NCBI GenBank assembly: GCA_009843865.1
Contig: VYCQ01000005.1
Span: forward strand, 1-60,832
Direction of reading: 5' to 3'
Length of the DNA stretch: 60,832 bases
DNA from: Acidimicrobiia bacterium
GTDB lineage: Bacteria; Actinomycetota; Acidimicrobiia; Acidimicrobiales; Bin134
Positions 2,478-39,995 of this stretch are shown piece by piece. The position numbers were made by a program, and so were the translations under genes. The notes below the pieces were generated by a model. That model was not told the DNA's origin. It searched no databases and saw only the letters and a program-made list of their open reading frames with translations. The first letter of the stretch is position 1; each line of letters starts with the position of its first letter.

Positions 2478-3385
2478 GGCACTATCGTTGTCGCTGTAAC
2501 GATGGGCTGTGGCGCAACAAGCGGACCTCTCAGATTTAGCCAGTAAAACACGGTTACTATCCACAATAGGGCAGCGCCAGCGATGTGTATGCCCACAAGC
2601 AATTCGGGTACTCCGGTGAAGTATTGTACGTAGCCAATGACACCTTGCGCGAGGGCCACCCCCAACGCGGTGCGACTCCAAAACTGAACATGTTCTGGAG
2701 CACTACGTAATCGTAGCCATAGCATCAGCCCAGCCAACATCAATAACAAGGCCACAACCGTTGTGCCATGAATTTGGGCCACATCGCGAATAGTAACGTT
2801 GATGCGTTCGGCTTTCTCATCGCCGCCGTGCGGCCCCGCTCCGGTAACGATGGTACCGGTGATGATCACCATTGAGGTGAGCCCAACTAGGGCGTTGCCT
2901 AGCCAGTGAGCACGGTGGTTGTCTCGATGGGGTCGTGTGTCAGCCGAGGCTCGCCAGTGCAAGATGACCGCATTCCACAAGAGCAGCATGGATAGCAAGA
3001 AGTGGCCTATTACTAACATTGGTGGTAGCTCGTAGAGCACCACCAGCCCGCCCAAGATGATCTGCGCTAGCACTCCGGTCACTAGGCCCCAAGACAGCCA
3101 AATCAAATCTACACGCCGGGGCACGCGCCAGTGAGAGCCCAGCACTGTTGCTATAACGATGGCCGAAACAAGCCCGGTGATGATGCGGTTTATGAACTCG
3201 ATCATGGCGTGGACTTCAAGGGGGGCAATCAGTTGGTCGTTGTCGCAGGCGGGCCAGTCGGGACAGCCCAAGCCCGACCCGGTGAGGCGTACTGCCCCAC
3301 CGCTGATGATTATCAGGGTTAATAGAACCAGCGCGCCGACAGTGATCTTACGGTAGGTAGCGGGAGATGCTTGAGCGTGGATCAC
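2474..3385 (-). CDS. ctaA: heme A synthase (COX15/CtaA family)
   Basis: A 303-residue protein with about eight membrane segments that oxidises the C8 methyl of heme O to give heme A for the caa3 oxidase encoded nearby. Visible family features are [20 protein letters not shown] (about 28-47), and conserved histidines in [27 protein letters not shown] and [10 protein letters not shown]. The cysteine in GCPDWPAC is characteristic of the actinobacterial and Firmicutes-type enzyme. It starts at GTG 3385 with no evident Shine-Dalgarno. It diverges from ctaB (heme O synthase), so the two heme A genes share the 95-bp region 3386-3480. Its 3' end overlaps clpS. Confidence 0.93.
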
Positions 3386-3480
3386 GTTGTGAATTGTACG
3401 GGCGCGCTGTGACAGGTAGTTGGGGTGACAGGGTTGAATGCTTGGCCCCGCAGCAATCTAAAACATACTCTGGGAAGGTC

Positions 3481-4440
3481 ATGGGCCTTACCCGCTTGTC
3501 TCCTCACGGCGATCTTCGAGTTGCTGAGCCCCGTATTGCGCATCGCCTTAGCGTGCGGGTTCGTAGTCGTTATCAGGCGATTCGGGCTTATATCTCGCTT
3601 ACTAAGCCGCGCATTATTGAACTGCTCTTGGTCACTACGGTGCCAGCCATGGTGGTAGCTGATCGGGGTATTCCTTCCCTTTGGCTCATGGCCGCAACGG
3701 TTATTGGCGGCACGCTGGCCGCAGGCGGAGCTAATGCTGTGAACATGTATGTCGACCGTGACATCGATCAGCTCATGGAACGCACTCGCCATCGGCCTTT
3801 AGTGACTGGAGAGATTGCAGCCCGTAATGCCTTGGTGTTTGCTATCACCCTTGAAGCGGTTGCGTTTGTGTGGTTTTGGGGATTCGTGAACTTGTTAAGC
3901 GCAGCGTTAGCGGTGTCGGCTACTGGGTTCTATGTGTTTGTGTATACCTTGTGGTTAAAGCGAACTTCGTCTCGCAATATTGTTATCGGCGGAGCGGCGG
4001 GTGCAGTGCCGGTATTGGTGGGTTGGGCAGCCGTTACCAACACGTTGGACTGGACACCGCTGGTGCTGTTCGCCCTTATTTTCTATTGGACCCCGCCGCA
4101 TTTTTGGGCTCTTGCCATTCGCTACCGCAACGACTACCGAGCTGCTAATGTGCCGATGCTGCCAGCAGTTGCGAGCATTCGCACTGTTGCTGTGCGCATC
4201 GTTGGCTATACGTTGGTGGTGTTGATGTTGTCTGTTGTGTTTTGGTTGGTGGCAGAGATGGGTTACATCTACTTATCTAGCGCATTGGGGTTAGGAGCGA
4301 TTTTTCTTTATGCCGCTATCAAGGTGTTGCGCACACAGGCCGAGGTGTGGGCCATGAGGCTGTTTTCTTACTCCATCACCTATATCACTTTGCTGTTTGG
4401 GGCGATGGTGGTTGATCAGGTGGTTAGAACCGGTGTTTGA
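3481..4440 (+). CDS. ctaB: protoheme IX farnesyltransferase (heme O synthase)
   Basis: A 319-residue UbiA-superfamily membrane enzyme that farnesylates heme B to heme O. The allylic-diphosphate motif NMYVDRDIDQLMERTRHRPL is intact (about residues 89-108), as are YISLTKPRIIELLLVT and the second Asp-rich loop around NDYRAANVPMLP. The frame is open upstream to 3367, but ATG 3481 has GGAAGG just before it and gives the usual family length. It is divergent from ctaA and sits upstream of the oxidase genes. Together ctaA and ctaB supply heme A for CtaD. Confidence 0.94.
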   Translation: MGLTRLSPHGDLRVAEPRIAHRLSVRVRSRYQAIRAYISLTKPRIIELLLVTTVPAMVVADRGIPSLWLMAATVIGGTLAAGGANAVNMYVDRDIDQLMERTRHRPLVTGEIAARNALVFAITLEAVAFVWFWGFVNLLSAALAVSATGFYVFVYTLWLKRTSSRNIVIGGAAGAVPVLVGWAAVTNTLDWTPLVLFALIFYWTPPHFWALAIRYRNDYRAANVPMLPAVASIRTVAVRIVGYTLVVLMLSVVFWLVAEMGYIYLSSALGLGAIFLYAAIKVLRTQAEVWAMRLFSYSITYITLLFGAMVVDQVVRTGV

Positions 4441-4544
4441 GTTACGCGGTTGCCTAAGGTGGTGGCCTGATGCATTTGCATGATGAGAGAAATGGTCTTA
4501 GTTGCGTGTAAGGTTTGGGCTCACAATTGTCGCAGTGGAGCCCA

Positions 4545-6257
4545 ATGACGATCGTTGACACGAGGTCCGAAACAGAGTTGCCGCAAACCAGCGGCCCTCA
4601 GCCATCGCAAGCTCAGCTGGTGGTCAGTGAGTTGACCCCTTCTACGGATTTAGCAGGGATTTTGAGCAGCAGCCATCATCAGGTTATCGGGCGACTGTAC
4701 GTGCTGTGCGCGTTGGGATTGTCGGGGCTGGGGCTAGGGCTAGGTTTGTTGATGAACCTGGAGAAGGTTGACCTAGACGCAGGTCTTGGGATTTTTGGGA
4801 ACACCAACGAATTGTTTCAGGTTTTTGCACTGTATCGCACCACATTGATTATGTGTGGGCTGGTGCCATTGCTTTTAGGACTGGCCACAGCAGTGATTCC
4901 CAAGCAGCTGCGAACCGTCACCGTGGCCTATCCTCGAGCGGCTGCGGCTGCTTTTTGGACTTGGCTGATTGGTGCGATCACTCACATAGTCGCCACCTTT
5001 TCTTATGGTGGGCTGGGTTCGCTGCAAGCTGGTGCAGCACGCGAGCAGTCGGTGGAGCTCACCTTGTTGTCGCTGGGGGTTGTGGCTTTAGGGTTATTGG
5101 TTGGCTCTGGAGTGATTTTGGCAACCTTGATCACGCAGCGTCCCGCTGGGATGGATCTCTTGCAGATGCCAGCATTCAGCTGGTCGATGATGGTGGCTAC
5201 GACGGTTTGGCTGTTTTCGCTGCCGGTGCTGTTGGCTAATCTGGTGATTTCTTGGGTGGATATGCGCGGGGCTACCGCTTTACGCTTTGGCACAGCCGAT
5301 GCTCCTTTTGAGCATGTGGCTTGGGCATTTGACGTTCCACAGGTTTATGCCTGGGCGCTACCGTTGTTGGGCATCGTAGCCGAGGTGCTTATTTCGGCTC
5401 ATCGCAGCCGCCCTAAGTTATTTGAGCCCATGGTATTTATAGTGGGAGCGTTTGGTTTCTTGTCTTTCGGGGCTTGGGCACAGAGTTTTTTTGACAGTGC
5501 TGAGCCGTCGGCACTTGATGCGCATGTGGTGTCTAATGAGGTGGTGTTCGTGGTGTTTGCCTTAGGAATCGCGGGGGTGGTGCTGGCCTTTGGCATCTGG
5601 CTGGCTTTTAACGTTGTTTCAGCCGAGCAGCGTCCTATTATCTCTCCGCAGTTTGGCTTGGCGGTGTTGTCGGGAGCGTTGTTGACGGCCGCCGTGACTG
5701 TGGGTGTGTTGCGGGTGGCTGGGTCTGCTTTGGGTGTGTTGCGGGAAGCTGATAGCAACTTGTGGCCCGGGTTTTTTGATGCCATGGACGACTTAGCAGG
5801 CTCTAGCTTGGTAACCGGAATGATGAACTTAGTGGTGCTGGCTGGATTGTTGGCAGCGGTGGCGGGCATCTTCCACTGGGCACCTAGGCTTTTGGGTCGT
5901 CGCTTAAACGCTTCGTTGGGGTTCTTAGCGGTTGTGATGCTGGGCGGTGGGGCTATGTTGTATGGCTTCACTGATGTGCTGGGCGGGTTTTTTGATCAGC
6001 CAGATCGTTTCTTTGTGGTTGGGTCGTTTGCTGTTGCCAATTTAGATGCTGTTGATGCTTTGGGTTTCGTGGAAGCCCTTAACGTGATCGGGTTGGTGGG
6101 GGTCGTTGCTGTGTTGGGCGGGTTGGCCTTGGTAGTTCTAAATGTGGTCATGAGCTTGGTCTCACCTGCTGACTTAGATGTTGCAGATGACCCAAGTGTT
6201 GTAGACGATGGTGATGGGTTAACTGCTGATATGAGCGTTGATGGGCAGGAGCGCTGA
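4545..6257 (+). CDS. heme-copper oxidase subunit I paralogue lacking all metal ligands
   Basis: A 570-residue, roughly 14-TM protein that clearly aligns with CtaD encoded at 9030. Shared landmarks include HHQVIGRLYV against DHKRIGIMYG, and GMDLLQMPAFSWSMM against GMSLFRMPVLTWMLL. Every cofactor ligand is replaced. The low-spin heme His in FTIHGVTM corresponds to ALYRTTLIM (about 95-103). The CuB motif GHPEVY becomes DVPQVY (263-268), keeping the Tyr. The CuB pair AHH becomes AQS (312-314). The heme ligands in HFHY become GMMN (near 424-427). It should therefore bind neither heme nor copper. The start is ATG 4545, with GGAG 4 nt upstream. It overlaps the subunit III-like gene at TGATG. Automated annotation would probably name it cytochrome oxidase subunit I; the role is unknown, perhaps structural. 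Confidence 0.8.
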   Translation: MTIVDTRSETELPQTSGPQPSQAQLVVSELTPSTDLAGILSSSHHQVIGRLYVLCALGLSGLGLGLGLLMNLEKVDLDAGLGIFGNTNELFQVFALYRTTLIMCGLVPLLLGLATAVIPKQLRTVTVAYPRAAAAAFWTWLIGAITHIVATFSYGGLGSLQAGAAREQSVELTLLSLGVVALGLLVGSGVILATLITQRPAGMDLLQMPAFSWSMMVATTVWLFSLPVLLANLVISWVDMRGATALRFGTADAPFEHVAWAFDVPQVYAWALPLLGIVAEVLISAHRSRPKLFEPMVFIVGAFGFLSFGAWAQSFFDSAEPSALDAHVVSNEVVFVVFALGIAGVVLAFGIWLAFNVVSAEQRPIISPQFGLAVLSGALLTAAVTVGVLRVAGSALGVLREADSNLWPGFFDAMDDLAGSSLVTGMMNLVVLAGLLAAVAGIFHWAPRLLGRRLNASLGFLAVVMLGGGAMLYGFTDVLGGFFDQPDRFFVVGSFAVANLDAVDALGFVEALNVIGLVGVVAVLGGLALVVLNVVMSLVSPADLDVADDPSVVDDGDGLTADMSVDGQER

Positions 6258-6853
6258 TGGCTGACATGGTTGTGGGTACGTCTATGGCAGCGTCGTTGCC
6301 GCGTCAGCGCACTTTGCTGGTGGGTACTGTGCTAGCTACTGCTGGCACGCTCATGTACTTCGTTGGCTTGTTTGGGGTGTATCTGCGGGAGCGAGCTGAG
6401 GCTTTAGGTAGGAGCGGTGATTGGATTCCGTCTGGTGCAGATATTCAGCTAGCACAGCCCACGCTTGCAGCTTGGACCATGATGATGTCGGTGGTGACCA
6501 TGCAGTGGGTGGTGTATTCCGTTGCTCGCAACGACCGCACCCACGCCATCATCGCAGCCGGGGTGACAGCCATGTTTGGGGTGTCGGTGATCATCACCAC
6601 CTCGTTTCAGTACACTCAGATGGGCCTAGTGGCTGATGAGTCGTTGGCAGCCACTTTGATCTATACGATCTCAGCTTCGCACCTAGCCATGATTACCGTG
6701 GCCTTGGTGTTTTTGGGAATCATGGTGTTTCGAGCATTGGCAGGAAACCACATCAGCCACCAAACTGATGGTTTCGTAGCTGCTTCAGTATTCTGGTATG
6801 CCGTTGTAGTTGTCTACGTCGTTATTTGGACGGCAATTTTCGTGCTCAAGTAG
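6257..6853 (+). CDS. cytochrome oxidase subunit III-like membrane protein
   Basis: A 198-residue protein with five predicted membrane helices, related to CtaE at 10999. LVGTVLATAGTLMYFVGLFGVYLRER matches the start of subunit III. SASHLAMITVALVFLGIMVFRAL aligns with the FHGAHVTIGIIMLMSL helix, and the last helix FWYAVVVVYVVIWTAIFVLK replaces LYWHFVDIVWIVIFTIVYL. Several conserved polar residues of true subunit III (the GFHGAH and WHFVD motifs) are changed. It is translationally coupled (TGATG) to the ligandless subunit I paralogue, so the two probably assemble together as subunits I and III do in real oxidases. Confidence 0.75.
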   Translation: MADMVVGTSMAASLPRQRTLLVGTVLATAGTLMYFVGLFGVYLRERAEALGRSGDWIPSGADIQLAQPTLAAWTMMMSVVTMQWVVYSVARNDRTHAIIAAGVTAMFGVSVIITTSFQYTQMGLVADESLAATLIYTISASHLAMITVALVFLGIMVFRALAGNHISHQTDGFVAASVFWYAVVVVYVVIWTAIFVLK

Positions 6854-6859
6854 GCTGTT

Positions 6860-7696
6860 GTGTTCACTCCTGGGTTTAGACTTTTTTTTGGTTTCACGCT
6901 GGCAGCGATAGCAGCCGCTGCTGTGTACGGTGTGGCTAGCGGCAGCGCCGGTGATACGGAATACTTCGGGGTTTTGAATGTGGAGGCCTGGGTGGGTGTT
7001 CTCAGCTTGGGCTACAAGGGCGGCATTGGTGACCATGTGGGTTACGTGGTGTTGATGGGCTTTGCGGTGTTGTCTGCGATGGTGGCCGTTTTCTTGGTGG
7101 CGTTTCGTGATGCCGATGCTGAATCGGTTGCCGAGCTAACTGATGATGTGCAAATTCCAGCACCTCAGGGTCAGCTAGAGGCTAACTATTGGCCTGCTAT
7201 TTCCGCAGTTGGCGTGGGGGCCATAGTTGTTGGGTTGGCTATCAACCCGATGATCTTTGTGATTGGGTTGGTGATAGTGGGTGCCGTCATCTTTGAATGG
7301 ATGATTGCTGCTTGGGCTGACCGGGCTACCGCCGATCCAGAGGTGAATCGCTCTTTGCGTAATCGCATTATGCGTCCAGTGGAGTATCCGGTGACTGCTG
7401 CTTTGGGCATTGCCATATTGGTGTTAGCTATGTCGCGGGTGTTTTTGGCGGTATCTAAGTTCAGCGCGGTGATGGTGGCAGGCGTGGTGGCCACCGCAAT
7501 TTTTGTGATTGCGGTGATCTTTGTGACGGTGCCTCGCATCAGCCGTTCGGTGATTGCTGGTACGGTAGCGTTAGTTTGTGTAGGTGTTTTGGTGGCTGGG
7601 GTGATCACCGCTGCTGTTGGCTCGCGTGAGTTTCACCATGTTGGCCCCGGTGGCGATCACGGTGAGCATTTAGAAGACAGTGGGGCCAGTGGGTGA
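6860..7696 (+). CDS. multi-pass membrane protein of the oxidase-paralogue module, function unknown
   Basis: I do not recognise a family. It has 278 residues, GTG start, and 6 nt separate it from the preceding gene. There are about seven hydrophobic segments: residues 5-25, 60-85, 110-130, 130-152, 175-195, 205-225 and 230-250. A hydrophilic loop lies near 86-108 and a positively charged cytosolic loop near 155-172. The C-terminal tail is rich in His and acidic residues (HHVGPGGDHGEHLEDS). No heme or metal motif is evident apart from that tail. Its position between the subunit I/III paralogues and ctaC, on one continuous coding run, suggests an accessory subunit or assembly factor of either complex. 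Confidence 0.6.
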   Translation: MFTPGFRLFFGFTLAAIAAAAVYGVASGSAGDTEYFGVLNVEAWVGVLSLGYKGGIGDHVGYVVLMGFAVLSAMVAVFLVAFRDADAESVAELTDDVQIPAPQGQLEANYWPAISAVGVGAIVVGLAINPMIFVIGLVIVGAVIFEWMIAAWADRATADPEVNRSLRNRIMRPVEYPVTAALGIAILVLAMSRVFLAVSKFSAVMVAGVVATAIFVIAVIFVTVPRISRSVIAGTVALVCVGVLVAGVITAAVGSREFHHVGPGGDHGEHLEDSGASG

Positions 7697-7757
7697 TGCG
7701 AACAAACGTAGAGATGTCTACAAATCTAACTACATCACCAAACTGGGAGAGCGTGAG

Positions 7758-9023
7758 GTGAGCAGGAATCTGAAGGCGCTGGTGTGGCTGTCTAGCTTGT
7801 TGGTAGTAACAGGGGCCATCGCTTTGATCGTGGTAGCCATAGTGCTAGATGACAACCACCCACTGTCTACCTTGTCGCCGGTGGGTCGTCAAGGTCGTGA
7901 CATTGCTGCGCTTATTAACCCCATCTTCATTGTGGCTGGGGTGATCTTTTTCTTGGTGCAAGGTGCGGTGTTGGCCCTTTGGTGGCGTTACCGAGTGTCT
8001 GGGTCTGAAAGCGGCGACGGCGAGTTTGGTTATTACGAGGACGGGGAGTTTCCCGAGCAGATACATGGTAATAATCGTGTAGAGATAGGTTGGACGTTGG
8101 TCCCCACTGTGCTGTTGGCTGTGATCTCGGTGTTTACGCTTATAACTCTGTTTGCCCTAGATGATGTGGAGGCCTCCGATGAAGACATGGTGGTAACCGT
8201 CGTTGGTCAGCAGTGGTGGTGGGAGTATCAGTACCACCTAGATGGCAACACCTCTACACCGCCTGATATTGTTACCGCCAACGAGCTGGTGATTCCCGTG
8301 GGGGTGGATGTGCCCTTGGACATCAAATCGCGTGATGTGATCCACTCGTTTTGGATACCCAAGCTGAATGGAAAAAGAGATGCCGTGCCTGGTCGTGCGC
8401 ACGATTGGGTGATTCAATCTGAAGAGACAGGGCGTTTCAGAGGTCAATGTACGGAGTTTTGCGGGTTGGCCCACGGTTACATGAAGATGGTGGCGGTGGT
8501 GCTCACCAAACAAGAGTTTGCTCAGTGGCGAGACAACCAGATCACCTCAGCAGATATGCCTCAAGAGGGCACTGCTGCTCACGAGGGTTGGCAGGTGTTT
8601 AGTCAGCAGTGTGCTAGTTGCCATGTGGTGAACGGAATAACCTCGGCGACCAACAGAGGAGGCAGTGGTACCGAAGCTGATACCTGGGACATTTACAGAG
8701 AACTCAGTGGTAATGATGCCGGTGCCTATTTAAGTCAAGATACTTTAGTTGCTGGCGCGGCACCCAACCTCACTCACTTGATGACTCGTAGTACCTTTGC
8801 AGGCTCTTGGTACGACCTGTATCTAAATGCTGACAGCCATTTAAATTACTTAGATTTGCCCGAAAATGGCATTTTGAATCGGGTGGAGTTGGAGAAATGG
8901 ATTCATAACGCTCCCGAGCGCAAGCCAGCCGCTGCTGATGAGTTGCGGGGCATGCCTGCTCGCAGCAGCCTGAGCCCTCAAGACATCGACAACCTAGTGG
9001 CCTTCATGTCTACCCTGGATTGA
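7758..9023 (+). CDS. ctaC: cytochrome c oxidase subunit II with fused cytochrome c (caa3 type)
   Basis: A 421-residue subunit II. Two TM helices (about 5-30 and 53-80) are followed by a cupredoxin domain with an intact CuA site: VIHSFWIPKLNGKRD for the first His, then GQCTEFCGLAHGYMKM supplying C-x3-C-x3-H-x2-M. A C-terminal cytochrome c domain follows, with QQCASCH for heme attachment and a probable distal Met near RGMPAR. This fusion defines caa3-type oxidases. GTG 7758 has GGAGA about 8 nt upstream. An alternative GTG at 7680 would add 26 residues and overlap the previous gene. It receives electrons from the bc complex or its cytochromes and passes them to CtaD. Confidence 0.93.
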   Translation: MSRNLKALVWLSSLLVVTGAIALIVVAIVLDDNHPLSTLSPVGRQGRDIAALINPIFIVAGVIFFLVQGAVLALWWRYRVSGSESGDGEFGYYEDGEFPEQIHGNNRVEIGWTLVPTVLLAVISVFTLITLFALDDVEASDEDMVVTVVGQQWWWEYQYHLDGNTSTPPDIVTANELVIPVGVDVPLDIKSRDVIHSFWIPKLNGKRDAVPGRAHDWVIQSEETGRFRGQCTEFCGLAHGYMKMVAVVLTKQEFAQWRDNQITSADMPQEGTAAHEGWQVFSQQCASCHVVNGITSATNRGGSGTEADTWDIYRELSGNDAGAYLSQDTLVAGAAPNLTHLMTRSTFAGSWYDLYLNADSHLNYLDLPENGILNRVELEKWIHNAPERKPAAADELRGMPARSSLSPQDIDNLVAFMSTLD

Positions 9024-9029
9024 ATCTGA

Positions 9030-11006
9030 ATGAGCACTACACAAGGTACCATTTCAGCATCTTTGGCAACTCGCCTGCTTGGCGTGTTCAGCCGACCTCA
9101 AGGCAGTGAGGGTTGGAAGAGCTGGCTGTTCACCGTTGACCACAAGCGCATTGGCATTATGTATGGCGCTGCTGCGCTGTTCTTCTTCTTAGTGGGTGGG
9201 GCCGAAGCTCTGTTCATTCGTTTGCAGCTAGCCACCCCCAACGGGTCGGTGATTGGGGCTGGAACCTACAATGGAGTGTTCACCATCCACGGTGTGACCA
9301 TGGTGTTCTTGGTGGTCATGCCCATGGCAGCCGCTTTTGCCAACTATCTGCTGCCGCTGCAAATAGGAGCCCGGGATGTGGCTTTTCCGCGCCTCAACGC
9401 CTTTAGTTTTTGGTGCTTTTTGGCGGGGGGCGTGTTGCTTACCTCTTCGATATTTATAGGCGGCTGGTTTCAGAATGTGCCCGACGCAGGTTGGTTCAAC
9501 TATGCCCCCAACAGCGGAGTGTTGTTCTCACCCCACAAGGGGGTGGACTTTTACGCCGTGGGTCTTCAGATAACCGGCATTGCTTCGTTGGTGAGTGCCG
9601 TTAACTTGATTGTGACCGTGCTGAACATGCGCGCCAAGGGCATGAGCCTATTTCGAATGCCCGTGCTCACCTGGATGCTGCTAATCACACAGTTCTTGTT
9701 GTTGTTTGCGTTGCCGGTAATCACCGTGGCCCTGTTCTTGTTGATGTTTGATCGTTTGTGGGAGTCCAACTTCTTCAATGTGGCAGCCGGGGCTGACCCG
9801 CTTTTGTGGCAGCACCTTTTTTGGATTTTTGGGCATCCCGAGGTTTACATCTTGATCCTGCCAGCCTTTGGGATTGTGTCGGAGATCATCCCCACCTTTT
9901 CTCGTAAGCCCATTTTTGGTTACCACTTCATGGTAGCATCGGGTATCGCCATTGGCTTCATGGGCTGGGGTGTGTGGGCACACCATATGTTCACCTCAGG
10001 TATGGGCCCGTTGTCGGTGGCTGCTTTTGCAGTGTCTACCATGTTTATTGCCGTGCCCACCGGGGTAAAGATCTTGAACTGGCTTGCCACTATGTATAGG
10101 GGGCGATTGCGATTCACTACACCCATGTTGTACGCGGTGGGAGTTGTGTCAATGTTCACAATTGGGGGCTTGTCGGGGGTGACGCATGCCATTGCCCCGT
10201 CGGACACGCAACAGACTGACACGTATTACATTGTGGCTCATTTTCACTATGTGATCTTTGGTGGGGCGTTGCTAGGGCTATTTGGGGGATTCCATTTCTG
10301 GTGGCCCAAAGCCTTCGGCTATAAGCTGAACGAGTTGTGGGGCAAAGCCAGCTTCTGGGTGATGCTGATCGGCTTTAATTTCACTTTTGGCCCTATGCAT
10401 ATATTGGGATTGCAGGGTATGTCGCGGCGCATCGCCACTTACCAGGCTTCTGAAGGGTTTGCTTTTTGGAACATGGTGGCCACTATTGGTTCGTTCGTGA
10501 TAGCTGTTGGCGTGGCTATGTTCTTGTGGAATGTGTTCTCTAGCACTCGAAATTGGCGACGGGTTGGGCGACCTAGTGTGGGGCCCGACCCCTGGGATGC
10601 CCGAGGCTTGGAGTGGATGACCGCTTCGCCAGCGCCTGAGCACAACTTTGACTCCGATATTCAAGTGGATCGTTTTGATGAGTTTTGGCACCGCAAGTAC
10701 GGCCGTGATGAAAAAGGCAAAATCGTGAGGGCAGCCAGAGCAGAAGAGATAGCTCACGATGGCAGCAACACCAACGTGCATCTGCCATCGCCCTCTTACT
10801 GGCCTTTGGTGCTGGGGGTGGGCATCATGCTTGTGGGATATGGGCTGATATTTAATCTTTGGATCGCAGCTTTAGGTGTGGTGGCGTTAGTGGGTGCAAT
10901 TTATGGCTGGTGCCTAGAGCCAGCCGACGATCCAGATACTGCCCACGGCCACGATCACGCTGGGCGTAATAGCTTAGAAGACGAGGAGGCGATTACCGTT
11001 GGCTGA
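9030..11006 (+). CDS. ctaD: cytochrome c oxidase subunit I
   Basis: A 658-residue catalytic subunit with all ligands present: low-spin heme His in FTIHGVTM (H87) and HFHY (H406), CuB ligands in GHPEVY (H269, cross-linked Y273) and AHH (H318/H319), and the high-spin heme His H404. The K-channel Lys is visible in AVPTGVKI. The C-terminal 130 residues exceed the classic subunit I. They contain a hydrophilic stretch and two extra hydrophobic segments (about 585-630), ending in a His/Asp/Glu-rich tail, as seen in other actinobacterial caa3 oxidases. It lies directly after ctaC and overlaps ctaE by 8 nt. Confidence 0.96.
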   Translation: MSTTQGTISASLATRLLGVFSRPQGSEGWKSWLFTVDHKRIGIMYGAAALFFFLVGGAEALFIRLQLATPNGSVIGAGTYNGVFTIHGVTMVFLVVMPMAAAFANYLLPLQIGARDVAFPRLNAFSFWCFLAGGVLLTSSIFIGGWFQNVPDAGWFNYAPNSGVLFSPHKGVDFYAVGLQITGIASLVSAVNLIVTVLNMRAKGMSLFRMPVLTWMLLITQFLLLFALPVITVALFLLMFDRLWESNFFNVAAGADPLLWQHLFWIFGHPEVYILILPAFGIVSEIIPTFSRKPIFGYHFMVASGIAIGFMGWGVWAHHMFTSGMGPLSVAAFAVSTMFIAVPTGVKILNWLATMYRGRLRFTTPMLYAVGVVSMFTIGGLSGVTHAIAPSDTQQTDTYYIVAHFHYVIFGGALLGLFGGFHFWWPKAFGYKLNELWGKASFWVMLIGFNFTFGPMHILGLQGMSRRIATYQASEGFAFWNMVATIGSFVIAVGVAMFLWNVFSSTRNWRRVGRPSVGPDPWDARGLEWMTASPAPEHNFDSDIQVDRFDEFWHRKYGRDEKGKIVRAARAEEIAHDGSNTNVHLPSPSYWPLVLGVGIMLVGYGLIFNLWIAALGVVALVGAIYGWCLEPADDPDTAHGHDHAGRNSLEDEEAITVG

Positions 11007-11622
11007 TGTTATGGCTGCTGAGGCCATCAACCACTCCGCTCAAGAGCAGGACCATCACTCCAGCACAGGGATTTCTAATGAGAAGCTGGCGATGTGGGTT
11101 TTTTTGGGTTCAGAGTGTCTGCTGTTTGGCGGGCTCATCTCCACATACATGTTCAACAAGGATCGCATCGGCCTCAACGACATCGGCCCCAGCGATGTTT
11201 TCGATATTCCCTTTACCTCGGTTAGCTCGTTTGTGTTGTTGATGAGTTCGCTTACGATGGTGTTTGCTGTATCTGCCATCACTAGGGGTGATCTGCGTGC
11301 TAATCGTATCTGGTTGGCCACAACCGCTGCTTTAGGTGCCACTTTCGTGGCCGGGCAGGTTTATGAGTTCACCGCTTTCTACAGCGAAGGTCTTGGGTTT
11401 ACTACTAACTTGTTTGGTTCTTCGTTTTACGCACTCACTGGATTTCATGGTGCTCACGTAACCATCGGCATCATCATGTTGATGTCGCTGTACATTATGT
11501 CGTTGCGGGGCAACTTGCCTGCTGAACGAGCTGAGACGGTGGAAATTATTGGCTTGTATTGGCATTTCGTGGACATTGTCTGGATCGTGATCTTCACGAT
11601 CGTCTATCTCTTCCCGCAATAG
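10999..11622 (+). CDS. ctaE: cytochrome c oxidase subunit III
   Basis: A 207-residue, five-TM subunit III. Family signatures are KLAMWVFLGSECLLFGGLI, GFHGAHVTIG and LYWHFVDIVWIVIF. I chose the TTG at 10999 because GGAGG at 10984-10988 is spaced correctly for it; the ATG at 11011 would be too far away. The start lies inside the end of ctaD, giving an 8-nt overlap and translational coupling. Subunit III has no redox cofactor and stabilises the proton-uptake side of subunit I. Confidence 0.94.
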   Translation: MADVMAAEAINHSAQEQDHHSSTGISNEKLAMWVFLGSECLLFGGLISTYMFNKDRIGLNDIGPSDVFDIPFTSVSSFVLLMSSLTMVFAVSAITRGDLRANRIWLATTAALGATFVAGQVYEFTAFYSEGLGFTTNLFGSSFYALTGFHGAHVTIGIIMLMSLYIMSLRGNLPAERAETVEIIGLYWHFVDIVWIVIFTIVYLFPQ

Positions 11623-11630
11623 GATTTCCT

Positions 11631-11978
11631 ATGGCTATCGTTGACCCTGAAATAACTGAACCTGATATCTCAGAGCCGGAGATCATAAACGTGGAGCACG
11701 CCCATCCCACCGACTGGCTCTACGTGAAAGTGGCCATCGCTTTAGCGTTGCTCACAGCGCTTGAGGTGTTCACCTACTTTGAGTCGGTTCACGGCTGGAG
11801 TGACACGGTGCTTATCGTGATGTTGGTGGCCATGATGCTGGTGAAGTTCTTTTTAGTTGTGGCCTTTTTTATGCACTTAAAGTTTGATGCTCCTATTTTT
11901 TGGCGATTGTTTGTGTTTGGGGTGGTGCTGGCTATGGCGATATATATGTTGATGCTCACAGCGTTTCGATACTGGTAG
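11631..11978 (+). CDS. ctaF: cytochrome c oxidase subunit IV (caa3-type small subunit)
   Basis: A 115-residue protein with three TM helices (about 30-48, 57-78, 87-110) and the pattern HPTDWLYVKVAIALALLTALEV...FFLVVAFFMHLKFD of the prokaryotic COX4/CtaF family. The frame stays open upstream inside ctaE, but ATG 11631 directly after the ctaE stop gives the expected length. The start has only a weak AGGA upstream. The acidic Glu/Pro/Ile-rich first 20 residues are predicted to face the cytosol. It closes the ctaCDEF block. Confidence 0.88.
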   Translation: MAIVDPEITEPDISEPEIINVEHAHPTDWLYVKVAIALALLTALEVFTYFESVHGWSDTVLIVMLVAMMLVKFFLVVAFFMHLKFDAPIFWRLFVFGVVLAMAIYMLMLTAFRYW

Positions 11979-12005: not shown

Positions 12006-12890
12006 ATGCTTTTTGTTGTCGATACTGACATCTGGCGGTACCAACCTCATGTTGAGGTGTGGATAATCGTGTTGGGTGCCGTGGCTATGGCATGGTACGC
12101 GTTTAAAGTAATCGCCCCCAAAGCTGCTCCGTTGGGCCAACCCGCATTTACTAGGCATCATCTTGGTGCTTTTGCGGGTGCATTGTTTATGTTGTGGCTT
12201 GCCAGCGACTGGCCTATGCATGATATCTCTGAGGAGTACCTGTATTCGGTACACATGATTCAACACCTGCTAATTACGTTTGTGGTGCCTCCCTTGTTGT
12301 GGGCGGCTATACCTGAATGGCTGGCACGGCTTTTTTTGAGCGGAGACGGCAGTGTGGGGGTGTGGACGCGGCGCTTAGCTCGTCCGGTCACAGCGGGGGT
12401 GTTGTTCAACTTTTTGGTAGCGGTGAGCCACATCCCGTGGGTGGTTAACACCTCAGTCGAAAGCGGCGCATTGCATTATTTCGTGCATGTGTTGTTGTTC
12501 GCGGCTGCATTGGTGATGTGGCTTCCGGTATGCGGGCCCATTCCCGAACTGCAAATGCGTCCGCCGGGGAAGATGGTTTACCTGTTCTTGATGTCTGTGG
12601 TGCCTACTGTTCCGGGCGGGTTTTTGACGTTTGCTCAGGATGCCGTTTACAGCGCTTATGACCATCAGGTGCGACTTTGGGGCATTGGTGTACAGGCCGA
12701 TCAGCAGGCTGCTGGCTTGATCATGAAGTTGGTTGGCGGCATTTATTTGTGGACTTGGATTGGGGTGTTGTTTTTCGGGTGGGCTGGCCATCAGCACCGT
12801 GCTAATACCCAGATGCGCTTAGTGACCTCTTCGGCGACCAAGTCAGCCAGCCAATCTAACAGCGACCACATTGCCAACAGTTCTCAATGA
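12006..12890 (+). CDS. ctaG: CtaG-type cytochrome c oxidase assembly protein
   Basis: A 294-residue protein with about seven TM helices matching the caa3_CtaG family. Characteristic features are LASDWPMHDISEEYLYSVHMIQHLLITFVVPPLLW (about 60-95), the HxxH-type histidines in it, HYFVHVLLFAAALVMWLPV, and DHQVRLWGIGVQADQQAAGLIMKLVGG. CtaG proteins help insert copper (CuB) into subunit I. It is cotranscribed with ctaCDEF, and its stop overlaps serS by 4 nt. The Ser/Asn-rich C-terminal tail is not conserved in the family. Confidence 0.85.
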   Translation: MLFVVDTDIWRYQPHVEVWIIVLGAVAMAWYAFKVIAPKAAPLGQPAFTRHHLGAFAGALFMLWLASDWPMHDISEEYLYSVHMIQHLLITFVVPPLLWAAIPEWLARLFLSGDGSVGVWTRRLARPVTAGVLFNFLVAVSHIPWVVNTSVESGALHYFVHVLLFAAALVMWLPVCGPIPELQMRPPGKMVYLFLMSVVPTVPGGFLTFAQDAVYSAYDHQVRLWGIGVQADQQAAGLIMKLVGGIYLWTWIGVLFFGWAGHQHRANTQMRLVTSSATKSASQSNSDHIANSSQ

Positions 12891-36147: not shown

Positions 36148-36933
36148 GTGCCAAAACAGTCCAAACCACCAGTCAGCGAGCGTGTTAGACAGTCCATGAG
36201 TTCAGCGATGGACAGTATGCAAGCATCGCAGGCGTGGACCTCAATCTTTCGGCCCGGCTCCATTTTTCGTAAGGGTTATACCGACAGTCCTCGCAATCGC
36301 AGTTATGTGATCATGAACAGCGTGTTGTATCACCTGCATCCGGTGAAGGTGAAGCGTCACGCTGTGAAGGTGAGCTATACCTTGTGTTTGGGCGGGCTCA
36401 GCTTCTTTTTGTTTATTCTGCTGACTGTTACCGGTATCTTCTTGATGTTCTTTTACCGTCCCACTGCAACTCAGGCTTGGGATGACATCTACAACCTGCA
36501 AGCTTCGGTAACTTTTGGTTTGTTGGTGCGCAACATGCATCGTTGGGCGGCGCATCTGATGGTGATCTCAGTGTTTTTACATATGGCTAGGGTGTTCTAT
36601 CACGGGGCTTATAAGCCGCCTCGTGAGTTCAACTGGGTAATCGGGGTGATTTTGTTGACCCTGACGCTGTTGTTGTCGTTTACTGGATATTTGCTGCCTT
36701 GGGATCAGCTAGCGCTTTGGGCGGTGACGGTAGGCACCAACATGATGGGCTTTACTCCCGTTTTTGGTGATCAGGTGCGTTTTGTGTTGCTTGGTAGCTT
36801 AGAGATCAGCACCGACACTTTGTTGCGATGGTATGTGTTACATGTGTTGATGCTGCCTTTTGTGATCGTCATATTTATGGCCATCCACTTCTGGCGAGTG
36901 AGAAAGGATGGGGGTATCTCCGGGCCGCTCTAG
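36148..36933 (+). CDS. cytochrome b, N-terminal part (b6-type split cytochrome b)
   Basis: A 261-residue protein carrying the four heme-binding helices of cytochrome b. Histidine ligands for two b hemes are in RNMHRWAAHLMVISVFLHMARVFYHGAY (about 131-158) and RWYVLHVLMLPFVIVIFMAIHFWRVR (about 230-255). The Qo-side GYLLPWDQLALWAVTVGTNM is intact. A 60-residue polar N-terminal extension precedes the usual start. GTG 36148 has AAGGAA upstream. It is split from the C-terminal half as in b6f and Bacillus QcrB/QcrC complexes. Confidence 0.93.
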   Translation: MPKQSKPPVSERVRQSMSSAMDSMQASQAWTSIFRPGSIFRKGYTDSPRNRSYVIMNSVLYHLHPVKVKRHAVKVSYTLCLGGLSFFLFILLTVTGIFLMFFYRPTATQAWDDIYNLQASVTFGLLVRNMHRWAAHLMVISVFLHMARVFYHGAYKPPREFNWVIGVILLTLTLLLSFTGYLLPWDQLALWAVTVGTNMMGFTPVFGDQVRFVLLGSLEISTDTLLRWYVLHVLMLPFVIVIFMAIHFWRVRKDGGISGPL

Positions 36934-36975
36934 CAGCGAGGTAGTTGCTATTGCGGGAGTTGGAAGCACATTTAC

Positions 36976-37782
36976 ATGGCTGAAATCCCAGAACATCTTC
37001 TCAAGCGTGCTCAAGAAGCCCGTCAGCGTGCTGATGCCCAAAAGGGTGGTGGTGCTGATGAGGCTGAGTCAGCAGGATCTGAGGCTGAGTCTTCTCCTCT
37101 CTCACAGGCTTCTAGTGATGGTCCGAAGATCCCGGAGCATCTGCTAGATCGTTCTAAGTCTGCGCGTGCTCAAGCAGCAGGTGCATCAGACAGGGCCTCG
37201 GCTGATGTCGCAGGCGGAGGTGCTTCTGCTGTTACCACGACACCTGTGCCAGCGGCATCTGCCCAACCTGAACATACCGGTCCGGGGGGCGGCACGCAGC
37301 GGCTTCTCACGGTGGTTAAGTCGGGCTCTATTCAAGATGTCAAAGCCACTCCCACCGACAAGGTGCATGTATGGCCGCATTTGCTGGTGATTGAGTTTGT
37401 GGCTGCTTTGCTGGTGACGGCCTTCACATTGCTTTTCTCTATTTTTGTGAATGCTCCCTTGCTAGAGCTAGCTAACGTGAATGAAACCCCTAACCCATCT
37501 AAGGCCCCATGGTATTTCTTGGGCCTTCAAGAACTGCTTACCATGTTTCATCCGATGGTGGCTGGGGTGACCATTCCGGGTATGGGCCTTTTCTTGTTGA
37601 TGCTGGCCCCCTACATGGATCGTAATCCCAGCAAGAAGCCAGAGGATCGCAAGTTTGCCATTTCGCTTATGACGGTGCATTTAATGTTTTGGGCGATATT
37701 GGTGTTGATCGGCTCGTTCTTCCGTGGCCCCGGGTTTAATTTTGTCTTCCCTTGGGTTGATGGTCTGTTCTTTGATTTGTAG
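36976..37782 (+). CDS. cytochrome b, C-terminal part (subunit IV type) with double PEHLL extension
   Basis: A 268-residue protein. The membrane part (about 130-268) is the subunit IV half: NPSKAPWYFLGLQELLTMFHP is the Qo loop (PWYF variant, as in menaquinol-using QcrC), followed by two more helices. The N-terminal 125 residues are hydrophilic and low in complexity, and contain two copies of one motif: IPEHLLKRAQEAR (4-16) and IPEHLLDRSKSAR (52-64). A related motif starts the cytochrome c at 34077. The extension is cytosolic by topology and may bind a common partner or connect complex subunits. Confidence 0.88.
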   Translation: MAEIPEHLLKRAQEARQRADAQKGGGADEAESAGSEAESSPLSQASSDGPKIPEHLLDRSKSARAQAAGASDRASADVAGGGASAVTTTPVPAASAQPEHTGPGGGTQRLLTVVKSGSIQDVKATPTDKVHVWPHLLVIEFVAALLVTAFTLLFSIFVNAPLLELANVNETPNPSKAPWYFLGLQELLTMFHPMVAGVTIPGMGLFLLMLAPYMDRNPSKKPEDRKFAISLMTVHLMFWAILVLIGSFFRGPGFNFVFPWVDGLFFDL

Positions 37783-37785
37783 AGG

Positions 37786-38664
37786 TTGACCGTGGTTGTT
37801 GCGCTTTCCATTGCTATTCCGATCATCTTGCTAGGTGCAATTATTGTGCTTGTCGGCGCAGCCCGTAGGCGCGAGACAATGGCAGCAGAAGGTCAGTTCA
37901 GCCGTGAGACCCGCAGTAGTGATAGCAGCCACACTGAGTTGGCTCGCTCTGGTGGCGATCCTGCGGCTCTTAGCGGTCGCGAGGTGGAGCGGGCAGCGGT
38001 ACTAGCTCGTCGTAGTCAAAGCGTTGAGTTAGTTGAGGCACCTGATGTTGTTTTGGAAAATTGGGTGCCGCCTGATCCTGAAGCAGTGGGGGTAAGCAGG
38101 CGGCAGTTCTTGAATCGCAGTACGGTGGCGATGATGGGTGTGGGCTTCAGCGGGTTTGGTGCGGCTTGTGTGGCGTTTTTGTGGCCCCCTTTTATTTCGG
38201 GATTTGGGGCTGACGTGAACGTTGGCAATGTGGAAGAAGTGAAGGCCAGGATTCGTGACGAGAATGGTTTTTTGTATCTGCCTGAAGGACGAGCTTGGGT
38301 GACAGAGTATCCAGCGGCTGCTTTGCAAAAGGCTCAAGCCGCCTATAGTGCTCCTGAGTTAGCGGGCATGGAAGCCGGTTTAGTGGCGTTGTTTCAAAAG
38401 TGTCCTCACTTGGGGTGTCGAGTTCCGTCATGCCCTACTTCGCAGTGGTTTGAGTGCCCTTGCCATGGTTCTCGCTACAATCAGGTGGGCGAGAAGCGGG
38501 GTGGGCCAGCACCGCGAGGCATGGACCGTTTTGCTATGTCGGTGAACTCTAAGGGCGAGTTCATCATCCGCACTGGTACCGTTATTCAAGGACCACCCGT
38601 AGGGTTGAACACAACTGGTCAAGAGCCTGAGGGTCCGAGTTGTCTCGGGGGAGCTTCCCACTAA
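37786..38664 (+). CDS. Rieske iron-sulfur protein of the bc complex
   Basis: A 292-residue protein. It has an N-terminal TM helix (1-25), a cytosolic charged stretch, and a second helix after RRQFLNRSTVAMMGVGFSG, which resembles a Tat-type signal kept as an anchor. The Rieske domain has CPHLGC (about 206) and CPCHGSRY for the 2Fe-2S cluster; ligands are two Cys and two His, plus the disulfide pair. Actinobacterial Rieske proteins share the multi-helix anchor. TTG 37786 is used. Its stop overlaps the cytochrome c start (TAATG). Confidence 0.93.
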   Translation: MTVVVALSIAIPIILLGAIIVLVGAARRRETMAAEGQFSRETRSSDSSHTELARSGGDPAALSGREVERAAVLARRSQSVELVEAPDVVLENWVPPDPEAVGVSRRQFLNRSTVAMMGVGFSGFGAACVAFLWPPFISGFGADVNVGNVEEVKARIRDENGFLYLPEGRAWVTEYPAAALQKAQAAYSAPELAGMEAGLVALFQKCPHLGCRVPSCPTSQWFECPCHGSRYNQVGEKRGGPAPRGMDRFAMSVNSKGEFIIRTGTVIQGPPVGLNTTGQEPEGPSCLGGASH

Positions 38665-39995
38665 TGCATCTGCTTGCTTCTTCAACCCAGCGTAATCTGG
38701 GCATGGCTATCGCGGTGCTAGCTATCGTGGGCTTTGCTGTCTATCTGATCTACAACGTGTTGTGGGCAGGACGCGCTGAGAAGGGCTCAGAGCTAGAGCT
38801 AGCTCCCAATCGCAAACCCTATTTGAGCGATGAGGATCTGGAGACCAAAAAGTTGGACTTCAGCTTGGCGACTGGCTTAGTTACCTTGGTGATTATCGGG
38901 GTGGCCTTGCCGCTTTATTGGTTAGGTGAGCCAGGGCGCCAAGAAGGTTATGTGAACTACACCCGCGATCAGTTCACTAGCAGGGGATTTGAACAGTACG
39001 AGGAGCGCTGTGCTAGCTGTCATGGAGGTGGTGGTTTGGGTGGAACTACTGCTACTTCGGTCACAGACGATAACGGCAATTTTGTGGCTGCCATTCAGTG
39101 GGAAGCCCCGGCGTTAACCACGGTGCTGTATCGCTTTTCTGAAGAAGAGGTGCGCTATATCCTCAACTACGGGCGACCTCCAACTCCTATGCAGGCTTGG
39201 GGAGCACCCGGCGGTGGTCCTCTCACCACTCAGCAAGTAGATGAGATAATTCAATATATTCAGAGCATTCAGCTTTCGCCCGATCAGGTGCAGGCTGAGG
39301 TGTTGGACGGATTAGTGCAACAAGTGCGGGCTGATGTTCTGCTTGTGTACCCGCATCTCAGCGAGCAGCTCGCTCAAGCTTCCGCCGCTGTTGCAGCCGC
39401 TGGAGCTGATGAGTCAGAGGCTGAGTCAGCAGGTCGTCAACTAGCAGCTATTGAACAAGAAATTCGCGAAACCAGCGAGCAATATATTAGCGATTTGGCT
39501 TCATCTGATCGTGGTGAGCTGCTTTTCAATAACGGAGAGTACGGTTGCGCTAGATGTCACACTCCTCGTGAGTCTTGGATTTTCACTGGGCCTGAACGAG
39601 TGCCCGGTGAGGGCTCAGTGGTATTGGCTAAAGGGTCTGAAGCAGAAGCGGAGGTAGTGGCGGCTTTGGGCAATTTGATTCCTGCCAAAATCTCAGGTGG
39701 AGGTGCCTTCGGTTCCAACCTAACCAACGGTTCTACGCTTAGACAGTTTGATACCGCTGAGGGTCACGCTGGTTTCATCATGGTGGGTTCTCAAGAAGGT
39801 GTGGGCTATGGTAACTTTGGTCAGGGCGATGGGGGTGGGCAGATGCCAGCGTTTGGGGTGTGCGTGGGTGACCGAGATTCCGGTGAGCGCAGCCCCATAT
39901 TTGGGTTCTGCACACTAGAAGATGGCAGTGTTCGGCCCGGCTTGTTGACCGAGCAGCAGATCGCCGACATCGTGGCCTACGAGCGGGAAATGTAG
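38664..39995 (+). CDS. diheme cytochrome c subunit of the bc complex
   Basis: A 443-residue membrane protein with TM helices at about 10-32 and 70-90 and two c-heme sites: CASCH (about 121) and CARCH (about 295). The second domain is separated by a helical Ala/Glu-rich region (about 225-275). A probable Met ligand is in GGGQMPAFGVCVGD. Two cytochrome c domains in one subunit follow the QcrC logic of actinobacterial bcc complexes, in which electrons pass straight to the oxidase, although here the oxidase carries its own cytochrome c too. The gene overlaps the Rieske gene. Confidence 0.88.
   Translation: MHLLASSTQRNLGMAIAVLAIVGFAVYLIYNVLWAGRAEKGSELELAPNRKPYLSDEDLETKKLDFSLATGLVTLVIIGVALPLYWLGEPGRQEGYVNYTRDQFTSRGFEQYEERCASCHGGGGLGGTTATSVTDDNGNFVAAIQWEAPALTTVLYRFSEEEVRYILNYGRPPTPMQAWGAPGGGPLTTQQVDEIIQYIQSIQLSPDQVQAEVLDGLVQQVRADVLLVYPHLSEQLAQASAAVAAAGADESEAESAGRQLAAIEQEIRETSEQYISDLASSDRGELLFNNGEYGCARCHTPRESWIFTGPERVPGEGSVVLAKGSEAEAEVVAALGNLIPAKISGGGAFGSNLTNGSTLRQFDTAEGHAGFIMVGSQEGVGYGNFGQGDGGGQMPAFGVCVGDRDSGERSPIFGFCTLEDGSVRPGLLTEQQIADIVAYEREM

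Follow-up and report, generated by a model that had tools for sequence, protein, structure and literature searches.

Few membrane enzymes have been studied as thoroughly as the heme-copper oxidases. In cytochrome bd, whose fold family is unrelated to the proteins described here, the catalytic subunit is kept together with a partner, CydB, that is its paralogue and has no heme. Among the closest described relatives of the locus reported below is the actinobacterial bcc-aa3 oxidase, with subunits I, III and IV in the order CtaD-CtaE-CtaF. Passages of PMC8361435 describe CtaE and CtaF as together making up the canonical subunit III, and place the contact between complexes III and IV of the mycobacterial supercomplex at CtaE, CtaF and a QcrB loop lying over the mouth of the CtaD D-pathway; parts of both PMC8361435 and PMC11189923 state that the QcrB loop covers the cytoplasmic mouth of the D-pathway in bcc-aa3 oxidases. 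Here we describe a module of three genes at 4545-7696, placed between ctaB and ctaC, in a 60,832-nucleotide stretch of DNA from an Acidimicrobiia bacterium (the window: GenBank assembly GCA_009843865.1, contig VYCQ01000005.1, positions 1 to 60,832; contig 9 of a 1.79 Mb genome that is 98% complete). Its products, pI, pIII and pIV, are homologous to subunits I, III and IV of the bcc-aa3 oxidase, and their genes stand in the order seen in the aa3 operon of locus L166 (CtaD-CtaE-CtaF-like). In contrast to that enzyme, the module has no subunit II and no proton-channel residues, the window's copy has no heme or copper ligands, and no canonical bcc complex accompanies it in the genome. The genes for a caa3 oxidase next door (ctaCDEF) belong to the same gene cluster, and their subunits I and III are paralogous to those of the module; however, all 112 caa3-type CtaD proteins compared keep every ligand, and pIII falls outside the caa3 CtaE clade. 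We found no description of a conserved, ligand-free I-III-IV core in a search of open-licence papers, which does not establish its absence from print.

The three genes are homologues of oxidase subunits, are linked throughout the order to which the window belongs, have lost cofactor ligands, are held by purifying selection, and co-occur with caa3 and with a split cytochrome bc complex. In all likelihood the module has no redox activity and serves caa3 as a partner, either in its structure or in its assembly. More specifically, it may be a redox-dead "pseudo-aa3 oxidase" that serves as a set of structural subunits of caa3, a reading to which we give about an even chance.

Three oxidase subunit homologues and their lost cofactors

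The first-pass annotation had placed three open reading frames (ORFs) directly before ctaC, and all three were found at 4545-7696:

4545..6257, + strand: pI, subunit I (CtaD) paralogue with a COX1 fold (Pfam COX1; ligand table; model and fold match)
6257..6853, + strand: pIII, subunit III (CtaE) paralogue (Pfam COX3; NCBIfam aa3_CtaE_Actin; tree)
6860..7696, + strand: pIV, fusion of a CtaF-like part with protein X's membrane domain (hhalign; Foldseek)
7625..7696, + strand: His/acidic tail of pIV (comparison with L052 and L173-L185)

The pI frame runs from an ATG at 4545 to a TGA at 6257; a TTG at 4515 is also open, and orthologues start at the ATG. pI matches Pfam COX1 with an E-value of 4.8e-30 (105 bits, cut-off 34.8) and scores 133.5 bits against NCBIfam CtaD_CoxA, under the cut-off of 670.75. 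An AlphaFold model reached a predicted template modelling score (pTM) of 0.86, and its best PDB matches in Foldseek were COX1 chains (E ~1e-15, query TM-score (TMq) ~0.7). Apart from pI, the neighbouring CtaD was the one COX1-family gene that we found in the genome.

Ligands were compared in an alignment of 119 pI, 112 caa3 CtaD and 20 aa3 CtaD sequences. The six His ligands are invariant in CtaD (112/112 caa3, 20/20 aa3), and the window's pI keeps none of them (0/6): Y and N occupy the low-spin heme positions in helices II and X, M stands at the heme a3 position, and V, Q and S are found at CuB 1-3. The subunit I paralogue without ligands that had been predicted from the letters alone is therefore real. 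Across the family, no pI has all three CuB His (0/119), while the bis-His pair for the low-spin heme is kept in 17/119, 9 of which also have the heme a3 His. Other residues stand in place of the D-channel Asp and K-channel Lys in every pI (119/119; T and F in the window), and the helix VI PQVY-type motif and the COX1 fold are retained in most. Second oxidases of the aa3 type (L153-L172) were considered as hidden copies of pI and proved to be ordinary CtaD with all six His ligands.

The pIII frame, ATG 6257 to 6853, shares one base with the pI stop codon (TGATG), in keeping with the translational coupling of pI to a subunit III-like protein that the first-pass annotation proposed. Its product is a COX3 homologue (Pfam COX3, E 3.6e-9, 37.3 bits, cut-off 23.8) and scores 51.6 bits against NCBIfam aa3_CtaE_Actin, under the cut-off of 190.

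The third frame starts with a GTG at 6860 and ends at 7696, with the ctaC frame opening inside it at 7680. Seven long helices are predicted in pIV, and its model has a predicted local distance difference test score (pLDDT) of 82. The window's pIV has no convincing Pfam match and does not reach the cut-off of Pfam Cyt_c_ox_IV (E 0.83, 10.2 bits, cut-off 26.9), a match obtained at E <=0.01 by 14/91 members of the pIV family, and a sequence search of the PDB found no relative. Profile alignments were more informative. The N-terminal half (residues ~1-156) aligned with CtaF proteins encoded in aa3 operons (hhalign E 1.5e-13), which as a set match the mycobacterial and corynebacterial supercomplex chain "Cytochrome c oxidase polypeptide 4" at E 1e-16 to 1e-19; the C-terminal half (residues ~156-255) aligned with the membrane domain of a second protein, here called X (hhalign E 9e-19). 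The top three Foldseek matches of the pIV model were 139-143-residue chains of bcc-aa3 supercomplexes (probability 0.87-0.97, E 0.1-0.3, TMq 0.21-0.23). VIA-align placed residues 109-156 on helices 1-2 of subunit III (Z ~7, root-mean-square deviation 0.7-1.0 over 48 residues), but this match alone proves little, since a Z of 6.6 is obtained for ferritins with these helices too. As judged from these alignments, pIV is a subunit IV (CtaF) that continues, in one chain, into a membrane domain derived from a cupredoxin-anchor protein. We had also considered a wholly new fold or a transporter, and dropped both after the profile alignments and Foldseek. The seven helices of the first-pass annotation thus stand, whereas its description of the protein, with its His/acidic tail, as unrecognised does not. 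Because the N-terminal half corresponds to CtaF, and CtaE plus CtaF to the canonical subunit III, the module amounts to I + III + IV with no subunit II.

Protein X has ~220-300 residues (some ORF starts are uncertain), with three helices and a plastocyanin-like domain; its membrane domain is homologous to residues ~156-255 of pIV, but X has no CtaF half and the window's pIV has no copper domain. In other orders of the class, X lies directly behind ctaG in 16/17 loci (L033-L047, L049), all 17 of which were chosen by a pIV match; the remaining one, L048, held no recognised gene. The C-G-H-M residues of its copper domain are invariant, Pfam Copper-bind is matched in 9/13, and the membrane domain is also matched in other classes of the phylum. 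X is possibly an oxidase copper donor or an electron carrier.

Within the window's order, the pIV of deep lineages ends in a linker and a type-1 copper (cupredoxin) domain with the motif C-x2-H-x(2-4)-M. One family (L050, L051, L070-L072) has the domain without the copper motif, and the window's pIV has neither, only a His/acidic stretch in its place. The motif occurs in 16/111 loci with pIV, and its distribution follows that of the heme site: it is present in 14/17 loci with a bis-His pI and in 2/94 others in which pIV was found. Jointly, the 119 pI loci comprise 14 with heme and copper sites, 92 with neither, 3 with heme only, 2 with copper only and 8 in which no pIV was found. Loci with both sites branch off first in the pI tree, and one of them (L179) is basal to the crown group, which makes loss simpler than gain. 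Nonetheless, the two traits each change just three times on the tree, so their association is no independent statistical test, and we dropped co-loss as a statistical proof of joint function. The deep lineages with a CuB-less, bis-His pI and a blue-copper pIV (L052 4420-7636, L173-L184, L189) encode, to judge from their predicted sites, a candidate electron-transfer complex.

Linkage to caa3 and selection

The module is followed by ctaC, ctaD, ctaE, ctaF, ctaG and serS. Its neighbours, and the split bc complex elsewhere in the window, are as follows:

3367..4440, + strand: ctaB, presumably heme O synthase (protoheme farnesyltransferase), labelled by family and position (ORF; upstream neighbour in 72/72 named loci with room)
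7680..9023, + strand: ctaC, subunit II of the active caa3 (Pfam COX2 3e-20 with CuA; Cytochrom_C 1.5e-7)
9030..11006, + strand: ctaD, active subunit I, complete in its ligands and ending in a CtaF-like segment (Pfam COX1 4.7e-154)
10999..11622, + strand: ctaE, active subunit III (Pfam COX3 3.3e-20)
11559..11978, + strand: ctaF, which we take from its position to be subunit IV of caa3 (ORF; conserved position)
12006..12890, + strand: ctaG, which we take from family and position to be a copper assembly factor (ORF; conserved position)
36148..39995, + strand: split cytochrome bc complex, comprising b N-part, b C-part, Rieske protein and diheme cytochrome c (Pfam; co-occurrence)

We read the gene order of three sets of loci, each fetched through a pI or pIV match: 23 loci, the best 80 of 132 named contigs, and 20 deep lineages, with counts taken where the contig allows. 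pIII followed pI in 21/21, 70/71 and 19/19; pIV came next in 21/21, 69/69 and 18/18; ctaC lay behind pIV in 21/21, 65/65 and 14/17; and ctaB was upstream in 20/20, 72/72 and 19/19. None of the 123 loci showed an X gene of its own. No pI was counted in L050, L065 and L192, where the module lies at the very edge of the fetched stretch or of the contig. Among the exceptions, pIII was not found in L112, a short contig, and in L190 pIV is cut short and ctaC is not nearby. In L180 the interval between pIV and ctaC (6586-11065) holds a BNR-repeat protein and a zinc-type ABC transporter (ZnuA, ATPase, permease), none of them respiratory, and L182 has a gap of similar size. The operon also turned up on contigs titled Bifidobacterium breve, Acidobacteria and Thermoanaerobacterales (L117, L152, L129, L150), titles that are probably wrong. 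Loci with the titles Ilumatobacter and Candidatus Microthrix were also among those found.

At E <=0.001, pIV was matched in 71/198 genomes of the class. Strong matches (E 2.8e-12 or better) came from 33/51 genomes of the window's order, and 38 genomes of other orders matched weakly, mostly across the X-like part. Among the matches listed from 296 genomes of the phylum, none outside the order spanned both halves of pIV, and the caa3 operons read in other orders are without it. We then scored 138 genomes of the order for pIV (E <=1e-12) and caa3-type CtaD (E <=1e-190). pIV was present in 90/138 and CtaD in 81/138: both in 80, pIV only in 10, caa3 only in 1 and neither in 47. The sole caa3-only genome, G212, is 80% complete. 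The scattered, unlinked homologues that would have spoken against a conserved unit did not appear, and the suggestion that a I/III core is kept beside ctaCDEF holds for this order; the wider expectation, a cluster conserved across Acidimicrobiia, does not extend to the class, since, among the matches listed, full-length pIV came from this one order.

Ratios of nonsynonymous to synonymous substitution rates (dN/dS; NG86 script, eight close pairs) were 0.04-0.26 for pI, 0.07-0.39 for pIII and 0.06-0.46 for pIV, mostly above those of CtaD (0.03-0.26). The values for pI argue against decay. With membrane sides assigned by the topology of the bovine enzyme, mean conservation in pI was 0.482 for the cytoplasmic-side loops and C-terminal tail, 0.321 for the periplasmic loops and 0.361 for the former ligands, compared with 0.723, 0.658 and 0.921 for the cytoplasmic side, periplasmic side and ligands of caa3 CtaD. 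The gap between the two sides is thus wider in pI. A tail that is otherwise conserved (LEWATxSPPP) has for the most part been lost from the pI of the window.

A proposed structural partner of caa3 and its rivals

The N-part of the split cytochrome b was found in 85/138 genomes of the order, 84 times with pIV and once alone; 6 genomes had pIV alone and 47 neither. The two loci are often unlinked, as in G110, where they lie at ~94 kb and ~4,168 kb. The b N-part is ~83-92% identical in most of the order's genomes that carry it, and most members without split bc have canonical QcrC instead. Scored at >=137 bits, canonical QcrC and pIV occurred together in 25 of the 138 genomes, pIV only in 65, QcrC only in 45 and neither in 3. 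The proposal of a scaffold joining the bc and caa3 enzymes gains only indirect support from the co-occurrence with split bc, and the window's genome gave no more than a weak match to the canonical bcc complex.

In our reading, pI is subunit I, pIII with the N-terminal half of pIV forms a seven-helix equivalent of subunit III, and the C-terminal half of pIV is a membrane anchor that once belonged to a cupredoxin protein. CuB was probably already missing from the ancestor. Early lineages retain the bis-His heme site in pI and the blue-copper site in pIV, and the crown group, the window included, has lost both sites and kept the protein alone. The module would then consist of permanent subunits of the caa3 oxidase that hold it in a larger complex by the faces they have retained, the ones through which bcc-aa3 oxidases dock to complex III: subunits III and IV and the cytoplasmic surface of subunit I.

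Several observations weigh against this. The cytoplasmic-side loops of CtaD are likewise the more conserved, so the contrast in pI may owe something to the usual constraints of the fold. In two deep loci, L180 and L182, ~5 kb separate the module from ctaC. Canonical QcrC stayed below the cut-off in the window's genome (a weak match only, best E 1e-4) and is absent at 137 bits from 65/90 genomes with pIV, so that the known docking through QcrB is not simply transferable; docking on the canonical QcrB loop is not supported for the window's genome. Finally, split bc is present in 169/198 genomes of the class, and other orders run it with caa3 and without the module. The chain does not need the module in general, and the module is thus an addition of the window's order.

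The main rival, which we think somewhat unlikely, is that the module is an assembly factor, a transient template or a platform for copper or heme delivery in caa3 biogenesis. It would account for a position with the heme A genes ctaA/ctaB on one side and ctaC on the other, and for the place of X, which shares its membrane domain with pIV, directly behind ctaG in the loci read from other orders, with an invariant copper motif. However, that motif is lost in most loci of the order, including the window, and an entire I+III+IV core is large for a chaperone. We consider it less probable again that the complex still moves electrons, with the blue copper of pIV feeding the low-spin heme of pI in deep lineages and other ligands serving in the crown group. 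The 17 bis-His pI, 14 of them with the copper motif in pIV, fit such a relay, but with three changes per trait the association is not independent, and the window has neither site, although other possible ligands were not searched for.

That the COX1 fold serves here to conduct ions or protons, or as a sensor, seems improbable to us: the retention of the fold and of the PQVY-type motif in most pI would suit it, whereas both channel residues are gone from all 119, in an alignment not systematically searched for another charged path. That the genes are a decaying relic, retained in the operon by chance, we regard as very improbable. Ligand loss has been progressive and pI mostly evolves faster than CtaD, as decay would predict, but purifying selection was seen in 8/8 pairs, and frames and gene order are conserved over the order.

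A structural partner, if the reading is right, would mean that an oxidase fold can be kept purely for architecture, and would provide a natural test of the purpose of supercomplex formation. We raise one extension tentatively, as possible but on balance doubtful: much of the order may have an asymmetric oxidase, in which an active caa3 core is permanently paired with a cofactor-free aa3-type core, derived from a CuB-less electron-transfer complex with heme and blue copper that survives in deep lineages. Were this so, the heme-copper family would contain a graded series from enzyme to electron relay to pure scaffold, with the deep lineages, which have heme and copper sites and no oxygen site, as its intermediates.

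Origin of the module

In the pIII tree the module proteins form a single clade (support 100/99) that joins the bcc-aa3-type CtaE (100/98), outside the caa3 CtaE clade. The pI proteins also form a single clade (100), which sits with aa3-type and haloarchaeal oxidases (Shimodaira-Hasegawa-like approximate likelihood ratio test, SH-aLRT, 93). Forcing pI together with caa3 was not rejected by an approximately unbiased (AU) test (p 0.124), so an origin as a caa3 copy is merely less likely for pI, and its sequence leans towards an aa3-type origin, not decisively. The aa3 operons of L166 and L170 read CtaC-CtaD-CtaE-CtaF-like, so the module resembles an aa3 operon minus ctaC, set before the caa3 operon. 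The trees do not favour the module as a copy of the adjacent caa3 genes: of the duplicated I/III core first suggested, the homologous I/III pair is confirmed, but by its look it is not a copy of its neighbour, pIII being of the aa3 type and pI leaning that way. In the window's active CtaD, residues 581-630 match Cyt_c_ox_IV (2.9e-7), despite the separate ctaF behind it.

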